From Trichococcus pasteurii (GTDB lineage Bacteria; Bacillota; Bacilli; Lactobacillales; Aerococcaceae): a DNA stretch of 64,000 nt. This document shows positions 1,275-60,609 of this stretch, one piece after another. Position 1 is the first letter of the stretch; each line of letters starts with the position of its first letter. The stretch is from the NCBI RefSeq assembly GCF_900112935.1, contig NZ_FONM01000014.1:1-64000 (forward strand), in the 5' to 3' direction. Both the position numbers and the translations under genes were made by a program. The notes below the pieces were generated by a model, which did no database searches, was not told the origin of the DNA, and worked only from the letters and a program-made list of their open reading frames with translations.

Positions 1275-1303
1275 TTAATTTTTTCGCCATTCCGTGATAC
1301 TAT
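1275..1303 (+). promoter_or_regulatory. possible proBA promoter
   Basis: TTAATT (1275-1280), a 17-bp spacer and TACTAT (1298-1303). The -35 is weak. It lies between the terminator and proB and would give a leader of about 90 nt. No T-box consensus (AGGGTGG..) is visible in it. Confidence 0.3.
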
Positions 1304-1398
1304 ATGAAGTAATACCTCGCTTGATGCGGGCTCAGCAATACATAAATAACTACTCTTTAATAGATGCAAAAAATCAAATCGTAAACGGGGATATGCAC

Positions 1399-2214
1399 AT
1401 GGAACCTATTCGCAACAAAATATTGGACTGCAAAAGGATCGTCATCAAAATCGGCACAAGTTCTTTGATGCTGGCCGACGGATCCGTCAACTACCAAACG
1501 TTCGACCGGCTTGCTTATGTCTTGACCGTTCTGCGCAATCAAGGCAAGGAAATCGTCTTGGTGTCATCCGGCGCGATCGGCGTCGGGCTCAACCGCCTGA
1601 ACCTGCCGCATCGTCCGAAAACCATCCCGGAACAACAAGCCGTCGCTTCTGTGGGGCAATCCGAGCTGATGAACCTCTACACCCGCTTTTTCTCGCACTA
1701 TAACCAGATCGTCGGGCAAATACTCATGACCCTGGATATCGTACAGTTCCCGGAAAGCCGCAGGAATGCCGTCAACGCTTTCGAGCAGTTGTTGAAAATG
1801 GGCATCATCCCGATCGTAAACGAAAACGATGCCGTCTCCGTTGAAGAACTGGATCACCTGACCAAATTTGGGGATAACGATCGCCTTTCCGCAACCGTTG
1901 CGGAAATCATCTCCGCTGACCTGCTGATCATGCTGTCCGACGTCCCAGGTTTTTATGATAAAAATCCGATGGCGTATCCGGATGCCGTGCTTTTCCATAC
2001 CATCCATGCCGTCACTGCAAAGGAAATGGCTTTGGCTGGCGGGAACGGTTCGAAATTCGGGACCGGCGGAATGGCAACAAAATTGAAAGCTGCCAAACGC
2101 ATCCTGAAGAACAAGCAACAGATGGTATTGACGCAAGCCACCGACCCGACCGTATTGTTCGATATACTGGCCGGCAAAGAAATTGGAACCTATTTTGTGA
2201 GGGAAGACAAATAG
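1399..2214 (+). CDS. proB: glutamate 5-kinase
   Basis: First step of proline synthesis: ATP-dependent phosphorylation of glutamate to gamma-glutamyl phosphate. The protein is one amino-acid-kinase domain with the early KIGTSS nucleotide-binding motif, [11 protein letters not shown], and the late K-G-T-G-G-M-A-T-K loop. At 271 residues it lacks the C-terminal PUA domain of the E. coli enzyme, as is common in Firmicutes. The frame is open from GTG 1294, but GGGG at 1387-1390 sits 8 nt before ATG 1399, and homology begins there. proA follows after 13 bp, so the two are co-transcribed. Confidence 0.95.
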
Positions 2215-2227
2215 AGGAGGATATTCG

Positions 2228-3478
2228 ATGAACAGTTTATTGCAAGAAATGGGCATTGCCGCGAAAGCCGCAGCCAACAGCCTGAGGAAAGCATCAACCA
2301 AACAAAAGAATGAGGGACTTTTGGCCATGGAAGCTGCCCTTTACGCGCATCAGGATGCCATCCTGACAGCCAATGCGAATGACATCGCAGCAGCAGAGGC
2401 TAACGGCTTGCCGACGCCGATGATCGAACGTTTGACTTTGAATCCGCAACGGATCAAAGGGATGGCGGACAGTTTCAAGGAAATCGCTCAACTACCTGAT
2501 CCGATCGGCTACGTTGAGGAAATGACGAAATCGGCCGATGGTTTGATGATCGGCAAGCAGCGTGTTCCGCTTGGCGTCATCGGAATCATTTATGAATCGC
2601 GTCCAAACGTCACAGCGGACGCGAGTGCCCTTTGCTTCAAATCAGGCAATGCCGTCATCCTGCGCGGCGGAAAAGAGGCATTGGAGTCCAATAAAGCCAT
2701 CATGACTGCATTGCAGGATGGGCTCATGAACGCCGGTTTCGCCAAGGAAACGCTCCAGCTGATCCCTGATCCGTCCCGCGAATTGGCCAGCGAATTCATG
2801 AAACTGAATGACTATCTGGATTGTCTGATCCCCCGCGGAGGAGCCGGGCTGATCCAGAACGTATTGAAAAACGCGACAGTGCCTGTCATCGAAACAGGTG
2901 TCGGGAATTGCCATTTGTACATCGATAAGGACGCCGAATTGGAAATGGCAACACGCATTCTGGTGAATGCGAAATGTTCCCGCCCTTCCGTCTGCAATTC
3001 CATCGAGACGCTGGTTGTCCACGAAGCAGTCGCCGAAACATTTCTGCCGGTTTTCGCCGAGGCTTTAGCGCCTTACAAAGTGGAATTGCGCGGCGATGCG
3101 AAGACCTGCAGCATCCTGCCTGAAGCTGTTCCAGCAACAGAAGAAGATTTCGCTGCCGAATTCTCGGATTTCATTTTGGCGGTAAAAGTGATTTCCTCTT
3201 ATGATGAAGCCATCGCGCATATCCAAAAATACAGCACAGGCCATTCCGAAGTGATCGTCACCGATCATTACCAAACAGCACAGAACTTCCTGAACGATAT
3301 CGATGCGGCGGCAGTCTACATCAACGCTTCTTCCCGTTTCACGGACGGCGGATGTTTCGGCTTCGGTGGAGAAATCGGCATCAGCACGCAAAAACTCCAT
3401 GCCCGCGGACCGATGGGATTGAAGGAATTGACTTCCTACAAATACATCATCTACGGCGAAGGCCAAATCAGATCCTAA
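2228..3478 (+). CDS. proA: gamma-glutamyl phosphate reductase
   Basis: Second step of proline synthesis: NADPH-dependent reduction of gamma-glutamyl phosphate to glutamate-5-semialdehyde. At 416 residues it is full length for the family and has the aldehyde-dehydrogenase fold. Visible motifs include [17 protein letters not shown] (about 116-132), the GGKEALESN stretch and the catalytic cysteine in RPSVCNSIE (Cys256). It has a strong AGAGGAGG site before ATG 2228 and follows proB directly. A terminator lies 26 bp downstream. proC is not in the window. Confidence 0.97.
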
Positions 3479-38692: not shown

Positions 38693-38913
38693 TTATACAC
38701 CTGAAATTGCTTCCTCTTGATTTCCTAATGTTTCAATTCCATAAAGTTGAAAAGTAGGTTGCATATAAACTGCAGTACCATTTGATACCAACACGAAATT
38801 TCCCAGAGCACTATCTTTCGTTCTGGCGTCAAATGATAACCTTCCAGTATCTCATTGCTTGAACATGCGGCTAGCATTACTGTACTTATGCAAGCTAAAA
38901 ATACTTTTTTCAT
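38693..38913 (-). pseudogene. frameshifted lipoprotein gene
   Basis: The N-terminus is a lipoprotein signal peptide (MKKVFLACISTVMLAACSSNE, lipobox LAAC). After LTPERKI the reading must shift frame to continue as LGNFVLVSNGTAVYMQPTFQLYGIETLGNQEEAISG. That matches the lipoprotein split by the IS at 57750-60012. It is truncated at the 3' end. Confidence 0.75.
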
Positions 38914-57473: not shown

Positions 57474-57749
57474 TTAATTTTTACCGAGAACTACTTCTAC
57501 TTGCTCCCTGACTTCGAGAGAATCTTTTTCGTATACAAATTCAACGTAAATTGTTTTTCCCACCTCAATCTGCTCACTTTTCAGCACAGGCCCAATTAAT
57601 TCCCCCTCAAGCGGCGATGTCCTAGTGTCGAGGACGCCATACTGATTTTCTCCAACATTAAGGGAGTAAATCAGATTCTTCTTGCTATCATAGATTCTTA
57701 TGCCTGCACCACTGACCACTTCCGCTTCGTTTTCCAATGTTTCAATTCC
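57474..57749 (-). pseudogene. 3' part of the lipoprotein gene split by the IS
   Basis: The minus strand reads GIETLENEAEVVSGAGIRIYDSKKNLIYSLNVGENQYG...VEVVLGKN. Its start matches the end of the paralogue at 38693 (YGIETLGNQEEAISG). Together with 60186-60013 it makes one lipoprotein of about 150 residues, with an all-beta extracytoplasmic domain resembling DUF5067-type proteins. That likeness is loose. Confidence 0.8.
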
Positions 57750-57990
57750 CTGACTGCTCCCCATGGATAAATCCAGGGGGTTCCAAAGGCTGTTGGGACG
57801 TCACGGACCGTACTGGCGATATTTCCAAAAAAGTGGAGATGTCGTTTTTCTATTTCCGTTCTATTCCCAAAAGCCCTTAGACTTTCTCAACAAGGCGCCC
57901 GATGGTACCATTCGCGTTGAAGGCTCACAGCTGAACCTTTTGGTTGCTCTTTACATTTGTTAAGCTAATTGAAAATCTCGCAGTCCGAAA
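57750..57990 (-). ncRNA. predicted omega-RNA of the IS200/IS605 element
   Basis: The minus strand from the end of tnpB to the element's right end (57750) is non-coding and rich in hairpins. By family rule it is the guide RNA scaffold, with the guide beginning at 57749 (GGAATTGAAACATTGG). Inferred, not directly visible as an RNA. Confidence 0.45.
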
Positions 57991-59474
57991 TTGCAGGACT
58001 GGTGTCCGGTTGATTGGCAGAGCGTCTGGATGCAGGTGTCGTGGTGCGCCATGAAGGTATCAAACGTCGCGCTACATTTTGTGCGGTCAGTCTCGTTGCG
58101 TGTCGGTTGGCTGTTTTTCAGGAGGAATGCACTGTACAGATCCCGTTGGACAAGCTGTCCGCCAACAAAGGTCGTACGTTCATCACGTGTCTTTTTGATA
58201 TACGTATCGTTTACGTGGTTATACTGGCTGGCACGAAATTTAAAAGTATCCACCTCGTACAGCGCACCCCCTTCTTGGGGTGCTTTTTGCTTCACGATGG
58301 CGATCAACATGGCCGGCGCATGATAGCCGATGGACTTGCCATAGCGTTTCTTGCGGTTGAACCGCCCGTTCTTGTTGACGGTCGTTTCTTTAGCCCGCTT
58401 CATCAATGCACGGAAATCCATGTCCTCCACATAAACCTGATTACCCAGTGCCAGGATGGCATTGGCGGTTTTGTTGTGGGCTTCTTTTAATGCCACCGCC
58501 CGACGGCGGTAGAGGTCCTTCAAGCGAAACATTATTTTCATGTAGTTCTTGCTCCGTACCCAAGTCAACTTGACACCCTGCTTGACGGTGCCGTCGACAT
58601 TAAAGTTGGCGGGGTTGGTTGCGCGGCGACTCCGGTCCAGTTTTCGTTGCAAAAGATGAATTGAATGGTCATAGGACGCTCCTTCTGGAAACAATTCCTT
58701 CAAGATGACGCCGTCATCACCTGCCACCGCCACCGTAGAGGTACCGATGTCAATGCCCACTTCCGCATTCGGAGCGGGTTGCCGGCGGGGCATACCTGTA
58801 TTATTATTGCGTTTCACTGGCGGGAGGCCTTCCAACACAAGTTGCAGGAAGTACTGATTGCCGCCCTTGAACACTTTGCGTATGATGCGGCAGTATTTCA
58901 CCCGGTGCAAGGAAAGGGATTCCTGAACAAATAAATCGTTGGCACGGATAGTGACGGGCAGAACCAGCCCGTTCCACTCCAAACGGTCGCCTTTGAAGCG
59001 CATGCCCGTAGCGTTCGACTTGCCCTCCAACGATTCCAGCTGGCCGAACTTTTTGAAACGTACCTTTTTGCCTTTGCCATGTAGAAGGGAGGACACACTT
59101 GTCCAGACCGTAGAAGCGATTTTTTGTGCGGTGAAGCTGTCGATATGCTTCTTGTACGCCTCGCGCATCCGTCCGATGTAGGCATGCAAAGCGTATTCCG
59201 TCATACCGAAGGTCTTTTGGATCGTTTGCAATTCCTTGTTGCACGCCGTCACACGATTCTTGTCGTTTGCTTTGATGGACAAGCGGCGTTCTGCCAGCAC
59301 GTCTCGGTATCGACGGTTCTTATACAACTCTGTTAGCTGCGTCCGCGCATGGTACAAGACCTTGTTATAAATTTTTTCAGCAATTTTGAAACGCTTATCC
59401 AGCACTGCTTGTTCATTTTGATGTGTAACAAGTCCCAGCTCTACGACGAATGAAGCTGTTTTGCTTTTAGCCAT
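57960..59474 (-). CDS. tnpB: TnpB nuclease, large form without zinc ribbon
   Basis: 504 residues, longer than the usual 360-400. The RuvC-like acidic residues are present: Asp242 in VGIDIGTSTVAV, Glu350 in VYVEDMDF and Asp445 in VQRDLYSAFL. The region that normally holds two C-x2-C pairs reads TFKFRASQYNHVNDTYIKK and has no cysteine at all. An extra C-terminal tail follows. It is 34 bp downstream of tnpA with AAAGGAGG before ATG 59474. Higher GC than its surroundings fits recent arrival. Confidence 0.9.
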   Translation of the reverse strand: MAKSKTASFVVELGLVTHQNEQAVLDKRFKIAEKIYNKVLYHARTQLTELYKNRRYRDVLAERRLSIKANDKNRVTACNKELQTIQKTFGMTEYALHAYIGRMREAYKKHIDSFTAQKIASTVWTSVSSLLHGKGKKVRFKKFGQLESLEGKSNATGMRFKGDRLEWNGLVLPVTIRANDLFVQESLSLHRVKYCRIIRKVFKGGNQYFLQLVLEGLPPVKRNNNTGMPRRQPAPNAEVGIDIGTSTVAVAGDDGVILKELFPEGASYDHSIHLLQRKLDRSRRATNPANFNVDGTVKQGVKLTWVRSKNYMKIMFRLKDLYRRRAVALKEAHNKTANAILALGNQVYVEDMDFRALMKRAKETTVNKNGRFNRKKRYGKSIGYHAPAMLIAIVKQKAPQEGGALYEVDTFKFRASQYNHVNDTYIKKTRDERTTFVGGQLVQRDLYSAFLLKNSQPTRNETDRTKCSATFDTFMAHHDTCIQTLCQSTGHQSCNFGLRDFQLA

Positions 59475-59508
59475 ACGTGTTCCTCCTTTCTTGATGATTG
59501 CTTTGCAT

Positions 59509-59919
59509 TTACTGGCGTTGTGAGGTCTTTTGGCTTTGGATGTATTGCTGAATCATTTCAAGCGGTGCCCCACCCACTGTGGAAACGAAATAGCTATTCG
59601 ACCAAAGAGTGGGTAGCTTCGTCGTCAGTTCCTTAAACTCCTGTCTCAGCACGCGGGAAGAAACTCCCTTGATGCGTTTGACTGCTTTGTGAACCCCGAA
59701 TTGCGGGTCTATATCCAATAGGAGGTGAACGTGGTCTGGCATGATCTCCATTTCCTGAATTTCGACGGATAGACCGGTGCACGTTTCTACAATGAGCTCC
59801 TTTAAGCGTGCCGCTACTGGTCCGACAAGGACCTTTCGCCGATATTTTGGACACCAGACAACATGGTAGGTACAAGAATAAATGATGTTATGATTTGATT
59901 TATATTTTTTATTTTCCAT
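59509..59919 (-). CDS. tnpA: IS200/IS605 TnpA Y1 transposase
   Basis: 136 residues from ATG 59919 (the frame is open to 59964). The HUH motif is MPDHVHLLLDI (His63, His65). The catalytic tyrosine is probably Tyr126 in QQYIQSQKT. IIYSCTYHVVWCPKYRRKV is the family start. It cuts and joins single-stranded ends during peel-and-paste transposition. The gene appears intact. Confidence 0.94.
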   Translation of the reverse strand: MENKKYKSNHNIIYSCTYHVVWCPKYRRKVLVGPVAARLKELIVETCTGLSVEIQEMEIMPDHVHLLLDIDPQFGVHKAVKRIKGVSSRVLRQEFKELTTKLPTLWSNSYFVSTVGGAPLEMIQQYIQSQKTSQRQ

Positions 59920-60012
59920 ATATTGATTATACAGCGAATTCCCACATAATACACCTAAGTGCACGTCTTATATCCCCATAGCTAAAGCAAGGGGCTTTAC
60001 GACGCTCTTTCG

Positions 60013-60186
60013 GTAAAGTTGAAAAGTGGGTTGCACATAAGTTTCGGTCCCGTTTGAAACCAAAATAAAATTTTCCAGCGCAACATCTTTGGTACGAGCA
60101 TCAAATGAAAAAACTTCCAGTTTCTCATTACTTGAGCACGCGGCCAGCAGAGCTATGCTTATGACAGTTAACAATATTTTCTTCAT
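60013..60186 (-). pseudogene. 5' part of the lipoprotein gene split by the IS
   Basis: Signal peptide with lipobox LAACSSNE, then LEVFSFDARTKDVALENFILVSNGTETYVQPTFQLY, where homology to the paralogue stops at the IS boundary. The frame runs on into the element as RKSVVKPLALAMGI and stops. Confidence 0.8.
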
Positions 60187-60279: not shown

Positions 60280-60609
60280 TCAAGAACTTGTATCCTCTAT
60301 TTGATAAGAAATGGCACTATTCGTCAGCGCTCCCATTTCGTCCACACTTAAAACATCTTTTGTTTTGTATATTTTCTTGTCTATACAAACAATAGGCAAG
60401 ATATCCATTCCATGCGTCTCTATTAAATTCCAAACATCTTGATTTTCTTTAAATTCTTTTTGCGAATGTATTAAAGAATACAGAAAATAATTATTGGGAT
60501 CTTTAAATAAATCTTTGTACATGCTTAGCGAACGCATTATTTCAATAGCTACTTCCACTTTTTCAGACTGTACGTTCATTTTGTCAAACACATAATATTC
60601 AATATCCAT
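60280..60609 (-). CDS. ArsD-like thioredoxin-fold protein without the metal cysteines
   Basis: 109 residues. The pattern EYYVFDKMN, then FKENQDVWNLIETHGMDILPIVCIDKKIYKTKDVLSVDEMG follows the ArsD family (F-x-x-N-x-x-V-x-x-L-x-x-x-G-x-x-x-L-P-x-x-x-V-D-G, then Y-P-S-x-x-E-L). The N-terminal cysteine pair that binds arsenic in true ArsD is missing, so a role in arsenite transfer is unlikely. No ars genes lie nearby. The assignment is by eye. Confidence 0.5.
   Translation of the reverse strand: MDIEYYVFDKMNVQSEKVEVAIEIMRSLSMYKDLFKDPNNYFLYSLIHSQKEFKENQDVWNLIETHGMDILPIVCIDKKIYKTKDVLSVDEMGALTNSAISYQIEDTSS

Follow-up and report, generated by a model that had tools for sequence, protein, structure and literature searches.

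An IS608-group element with a predicted target motif and guide

The predicted lipoprotein gene near the end of a 64,000-nucleotide stretch of Trichococcus pasteurii DNA (NCBI RefSeq assembly GCF_900112935.1, contig NZ_FONM01000014.1, positions 1 to 64,000; hereafter the window) is split by an insertion sequence (IS) of 2,263 bp at 57750..60012. We are highly confident that this insertion sequence of a Trichococcus-type host belongs to the IS608 group of IS200/IS605 elements, and that it acts by the TnpA, omega-RNA and TnpB mechanism proposed below. It is mostly an ordinary, further representative of a known family; what stands out is the clade of TnpB proteins without a zinc-binding TNB region to which it belongs, and the three guide/target classes among its relatives. 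The element also makes a fully specified TnpB system, with ends, a predicted target-adjacent motif (TAM), a predicted guide, four natural empty alleles and one natural near-target, a gene remnant differing at the motif. All features described lie on the minus strand, with the left end of the element at 60012 and its right end at 57750.

The 5' part of the lipoprotein gene lies at 60013..60186 and the 3' part at 57474..57749, and the joined flanks (543 nt) encode a predicted lipoprotein of 149 amino acids. At the left junction CAACTTTAC is followed by CGAAAGAGCG of the element, and at the right junction GAGCAGTCAG of the element is followed by GGAATTGAAACATTGG; read further after 57750, the right flank is GGAATTGAAACATTGGAAAACG. 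The joined flanks were searched in all 13 genomes of the genus. Four of the 12 genomes besides the own one have the gene, and all four carry it as an empty allele, in which CAACTTTAC is directly followed by GGAATTGAAACATTGG with neither a gap nor a duplication at the junction. Eleven other distinct left ends in the genus further support these ends.

The tnpA gene (59509..59919) encodes a Y1 HUH transposase of 136 amino acids from the ATG, within an open reading frame that reaches back to a GTG at 59964. TnpA matches Y1_Tnp (2e-44) and the NCBIfam family transpos_IS200 (154.3 bits, cut-off 55). Among solved structures the closest protein is the TnpA of ISHp608 (3.9e-56, 65% identity over 131 amino acids), and in the alignment of the two the HVH motif and the columns of the tyrosine Y127 and the glutamine Q131 are kept. 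The preliminary description had reported an IS200/IS605 element that splits a lipoprotein gene and whose ends can be read. The sequence bears out the split gene, the four seamless empty sites support the ends, and the ISHp608-like TnpA supports the family. Its span of 57729-60016 does contain the element, but takes in 21 nt of the right flank and, at 60013..60016, the TTAC as well.

Both ends carry a subterminal hairpin with a guide tetramer on its 5' side that matches the cleavage site. On the left, the guide GL is AAAG (59995..59998, positions +15..+18 of the element), the same tetramer as in IS608, and is followed by a hairpin of 21 nt (59974..59994, +19..+39, CCCC...GGGG) and then AT, as in IS608. 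On the right, the guide GR is GAAC (57780..57783), the hairpin lies at 57759..57779, and the cleavage site CR is TCAG (57750..57753), 3' of the hairpin. IS608 inserts 3' of TTAC, which is paired with its GL AAAG, T-3 and T-4 being the partners of A+16 and A+17; at the right end its sites are TCAA and GAAT (PMC5934647). The element shares with IS608 (ISHp608) the TTAC kept in the left flank, the GL AAAG, the left hairpin followed by AT, a right guide starting with GAA, the HUH Y1 TnpA and the order tnpA-tnpB (PMC5934647). Unlike IS608, it combines TCAG with GAAC instead of TCAA with GAAT, so that the last position is changed on both sides, its GL is one base nearer to the left end, and there is no preference for C at +1. 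We also count the missing zinc ribbon of its TnpB as a difference, where the ISHp608 TnpB itself was not part of the comparison.

Target motif and empty alleles

The tetramer TTAC (60013..60016) stands directly before the left end in all 12 distinct insertions of the genus whose left end can be read; the copies L003/L021, L011, L017 and L018 (L numbers denote loci) have no left end and are not among the 12. TTAC makes up 0.33% of the tetramers in the window (frequency 0.0033), which gives a chance of about 1.5e-30 for 12 of 12, as a plain product in which the sites are taken to be independent. The longer TTTAC, which the preliminary description allowed beside TTAC, is ruled out as the motif because the base before TTAC varies (T in seven, A in two, C in two and G in one of the 12); TTAC itself stands. 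The same description had named empty sites in relatives as a check, and TTAC is at the junction in all four. Insertion is thus 3' of a fixed tetranucleotide without target duplication. The right flanks, on the other hand, differ between copies (15 distinct ones). As seen here, TTAC is an insertion flank, which is a property of TnpA, and its role as the TAM of TnpB is predicted after ISDra2 (PMC8612924).

Two further insertions, at the L002 and L016 sites, out of ten prepared were checked for empty alleles. At the L002 site TTAC precedes the guide region in 9 of 9 matched empty alleles. Six of these alleles aligned also on the left; in these, an upstream TTAC (TGAC in L081) is separated by 14 bp from the second TTAC. 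The occupied allele in the own genome (L002, contig C21, left junction at L002:1504) is without those 14 bp. An inverted repeat (TTTTGTCA...TGACAAAA) makes up the empty site, and one of its arms is lost in the occupied allele. This loss may be a TnpA-mediated deletion between the TTACs. The alleles of the L016 site are described below with the points against our interpretation.

Predicted omega-RNA and guide

Downstream of the tnpB stop, a stretch of 210 nt (57750..57959) folds better than shuffled sequences (z -3.24, reached by 0 of 200 shuffles) and is the predicted scaffold of the omega-RNA. We aligned 18 right ends, 11 from the genus and seven from relatives whose TnpB is 38-44% identical; outside this alignment stand the copies L009 and L011, the relative L040 with its right end of 310 nt, and all zinc-bearing relatives. 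All 18 sequences have in common two stems plus an inner one, with 15 nested pairs, of which 13 are changed on both sides. In this structure, which was drawn from the same sequences that scored it, 98.1% of the cells are paired, compared to 80.6 +/- 1.3% in shuffles (0 of 500 reach the observed value) and 33-49% in a control with slid register. Rfam has no match in the window at the gathering threshold.

The loop of stem 1 (57921..57938) forms a pseudoknot with the last RNA bases before the guide. In the seven relatives, three of which have one identical loop, the loop and the last bases of the element make 40 of 42 pairs, which is reached by 0.7% of permutations. All 11 genus copies form the pseudoknot with five of five pairs in a register shifted by one base; in the register of the relatives, 77.8% of the cells are paired over all 18 rows. 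The right end thus offers what a TnpB system has, an omega-RNA with a guide-adjacent pseudoknot, within a structure drawn from the sequences themselves. In ISDra2 the pseudoknot is at -6..-2 before the guide (PMC10097598). Because the pseudoknot abuts the end of the element, the first base of the guide would be the first host base. The predicted guide is therefore the 16-nt right flank GGAATTGAAACATTGG (57734..57749), with the length taken after ISDra2 (PMC8612924). The covarying RNA in this way supports, as a prediction, the earlier proposal that guide and right flank are the same.

The first 24 nt of the right flank in the window differ from each of the four empty alleles only at position 18, and the predicted guide matches these alleles at positions 1-17. 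Hence a TnpB loaded with this guide should recognise the empty alleles of all four sister genomes.

In the mechanism that we propose, TnpA (Y1) would insert the single-stranded element directly 3' of TTAC without target duplication, the left-end guide AAAG selecting the TTAC by base pairing. For this step junctions and flanks are observed, and the chemistry is taken over from IS608. The right end would be transcribed into the omega-RNA, with the pseudoknot abutting the element end and the next ~16 nt of host DNA as the guide; here the structure comes from covariation, and we infer transcription and processing. By analogy to ISDra2, TnpB with the omega-RNA should cut TTAC-GGAATTGAAACATTGG, which is the empty allele, and such cutting would help the element to be copied back once it has been excised, or to be copied into empty alleles. 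Retention of insertion sequences by TnpB (PMC8612924) and a gene-drive effect of TnpB in plasmids (PMC11870625) have already been published.

The system resembles ISDra2 in the RuvC D-E-D triad of TnpB, the guide from the right flank and the pseudoknot formed by the last omega-RNA bases before the guide (PMC8612924, PMC10097598). Unlike ISDra2, it has TTAC as predicted TAM instead of TTGAT and is without the CCCC zinc finger, and its conserved RNA follows the tnpB stop, whereas the RNA of ISDra2 overlaps the 3' end of tnpB.

The TnpB protein and its zinc-less clade

The tnpB gene (57960..59474) encodes 504 amino acids with the RuvC triad D242, E350 and D445, which is invariant in all 16 aligned TnpB proteins. 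The AlphaFold2 model (mean predicted local distance difference test score, pLDDT, 84.7) matches TnpB and Cas12f structures, and its best Foldseek match is the TnpB of ISFba1 (8iaz; E 2.6e-14, template modelling score 0.73 by target). The likeness to ISFba1 TnpB is in the fold; the sequence identity is 15%, and a sequence search of the PDB with TnpB gave nothing meaningful.

Among the nearest relatives, PF07282 was found in none of the six scanned (E up to 0.01), and in four of four scanned proteins of the zinc-bearing clade. At most one cysteine stands in the TNB stretch of the window TnpB, the two other own copies, L036, L038-L042 and L070, and likewise of L037. These zinc-less TnpBs have ASQ(Y/F)xH...KK...R in common. 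In the next clade, 11 of the 11 proteins shown have four or more cysteines in the stretch. The two form sister groups, L036-L042 and L070 without and L044-L047, L071-L075, L077 and L078 with the TNB zinc cysteines. The zinc finger is described for 'many TnpBs' (PMC10711439) and is thus common but not defining, so that a missing one does not exclude membership in TnpB. A search of titles and abstracts in the open-licence literature found no paper on TnpBs without the TNB zinc finger.

Guide and target in relatives

A left end could be recognised in 13 relatives, and in 12 of them its guide predicts the flanking target. The predicted target had to be the sole one of TTAC, TCAC, TGAC and TAAC within 16-26 nt before the guide end; the left-end cores were chosen by eye, and the 12 cases are not independent of each other, as several of the relatives are close to one another. 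AAAG goes with TTAC in six relatives (L040, L044, L045, L046, L070 and L072), GAAG with TCAC in two (L036 and L038), and TGAC with CAAG in two (L047 and L071) and with CAGG in another two (L075 and L077). At the right end, GAAC before and TCAG after the hairpin were found in all 17 relatives whose right end is readable by eye (L036-L042, L044-L047, L070, L072, L074, L075, L077 and L078). No column among the N-terminal TnpB residues, including the presumed equivalent of ISDra2 K76, separates the three target classes. No paper covering all terms of the guide/target covariation was found in the open-licence literature. One relative, L038 (~1299..3006 on the minus strand of its locus), has tnpB and both ends without a tnpA match and is possibly mobilised in trans.

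We tentatively propose, while leaning slightly against it, that the zinc-less clade replaced the TNB zinc ribbon by ASQ(Y/F)xH...KK...R and yet is active, and that in this clade and its zinc-bearing sister the TAM shifts with the TnpA guide (TTAC, TCAC, TGAC). If so, the TAM of each element could be read from four left-end bases, and the lineage would offer a natural series of TAMs re-coded at position -3. A TNB without zinc is of interest for the purpose that this domain has in the ancestors of Cas12, and the guide/target classes are a test case for the co-evolution of the TnpA target and the TnpB TAM.

A paralogous remnant as near-target

A paralogous 5' remnant of the lipoprotein gene lies at 38710..38913. 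It is ~200 bp long, has 78% identity to the lipoprotein gene and carries a one-base frameshift. It reads CAACTTTAT followed by GGAATTGAAACATTAGG, with TTAT (38741..38744) before the guide-like sequence. Compared to the guide region it is exact for 14 nt and mismatched at positions 15, 17, 21 and 22 of 24. The preliminary description had pointed to a paralogue with TTTAT before a nearly identical sequence; the TTTAT is there, but the match is exact for only 14 nt and belongs to a frameshifted remnant, not to an intact gene.

The own genome (46 contigs) was scanned for TTAY followed by the first 14 guide bases with up to three mismatches, which gave 12 matches (two with the reversed control). 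The sole perfect match is the remnant with its TTAT. Another is the right junction of the element itself, with TCAG instead of TTAY, and the ten others have two or three mismatches, none of them starting with TTAC. The assembly thus holds no site of TTAC plus the guide. Double mismatches at 13-16 lower the cleavage by ISDra2 TnpB but allow it (PMC10097598), so that the differences of the remnant at 15 and 17 may be too few to protect it, which would leave the motif as its chief safeguard. Judged from its sequence, an escape of the paralogue through its motif is plausible, and the remnant is probably spared mainly by its TTAT.

Points against and alternative explanations

Several observations weigh against the interpretation given above. 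The window TnpB scores below the family cut-offs, with 81.9 bits (5.2e-23) against a cut-off of 100 for NCBIfam guided_TnpB and 25.6 against 30.5 for Pfam OrfB_IS605, and it has neither PF07282 (E up to 0.001) nor a cysteine in its TNB stretch. When folded by DNA energies, neither end exceeds its shuffles (z -0.88 and -0.36), so that the end hairpins rest on the comparison with IS608 and the relatives. The +1 base is T in six, G in four, A in three and C in two of the 15 distinct right flanks, which is unlike the C preference of IS608. L074 carries none of the targets and falls outside the guide/target rule, the left end was not recognised in L037, L039, L041 and L042, and the right end not in L071, L073 and L076. 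At the L016 site TTAC is present in only 1 of 10 empty alleles, although the occupied allele has it. In the nine alleles without TTAC, the guide region is exact over 20 nt in four, mismatched at 12 in one and at 12 and 14 in four; the sole allele with TTAC is also mismatched at 12 and 14. Finally, an archaeal TnpB accepts variant TAMs, and is stricter on mismatches there (PMC11043419), which weighs against an escape of the paralogue through its motif.

The low family scores and the missing zinc-ribbon cysteines would also fit a TnpB that binds DNA guided by RNA and is no longer a nuclease, which would make it TldR-like. We consider this unlikely, as the catalytic triad is invariant in the 16 aligned proteins, tnpB is open in all three own copies and the element is inserted at many sites in the genus. 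Nuclease-dead TnpBs of the TldR type have lost their RuvC catalytic residues, a loss not seen in the window TnpB with its intact triad.

It is conceivable, if rather doubtful, that TnpB instead tolerates TTAT and cleaves the remnant at least weakly, the remnant surviving through repair or low expression. The archaeal TnpB edits at variant TAMs (PMC11043419), the 14 matching nt span the ~12 nt most important for ISDra2 (PMC10097598), and other IS605 elements often have TTAT as their left cleavage site, 10 of them in a survey of six species (PMC9956272). Yet mismatches, which the remnant has, are costly to the archaeal TnpB at weak TAMs (PMC11043419), and none of the 12 insertions is flanked by TTAT, although the flank reports on TnpA and not on TnpB. 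That the TTAT was selected as an escape mutation driven by this TnpB is very improbable. The only perfect match of TTAY plus 14 nt in the genome being one without the C would agree with selection, but the remnant is frameshifted, and outgroups failed to resolve the polarity of the TAT/TAC change, both outgroup codons being TTT. Moreover, at the L016 site relatives often differ in the motif while their guide region is intact or near-intact. There the element is not the evident cause of the lost motif, so such a change needs no selection. We therefore regard the TTAT as most likely a neutral difference rather than a selected escape.

Distribution and neighbouring genes

Among the genomes searched, close copies of the element were found only in Trichococcus-type genomes. 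Nine of the 13 genomes of the genus match, compared to none of 47 other genomes of the family; in the order, 40 genomes yielded a single match of 28 bp. Six loci came from a scan of named genomes, four in Trichococcus species and two in contigs filed as Sedimentibacter sp. SX930. The latter (L023, MUZD01000010, and L024, MUZD01000002) coincide with contigs of genome G012, which is placed in the genus of the window, and the Sedimentibacter title of these records is probably wrong. Eleven plasmid records match in part, eight of them over annotated tnpA genes, and none covers 80% of the element; no phage was found in the 'near' mode, and no relative among viral contigs. The available text of a Trichococcus genome paper (PMC6950789) mentions neither transposons nor insertion sequences.

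Another copy in the own genome (L003, contig C18, 1501-3600) is truncated within the 5' part of tnpA; its tnpB and right end are whole. It is probably immobile by itself and perhaps able to make guide RNA and nuclease. Beside the split gene, the open reading frame at 60280..60609 is ArsD-like in Pfam (33 bits, cut-off 27) and below the cut-off of the NCBIfam ArsD equivalog (32.9, cut-off 90).

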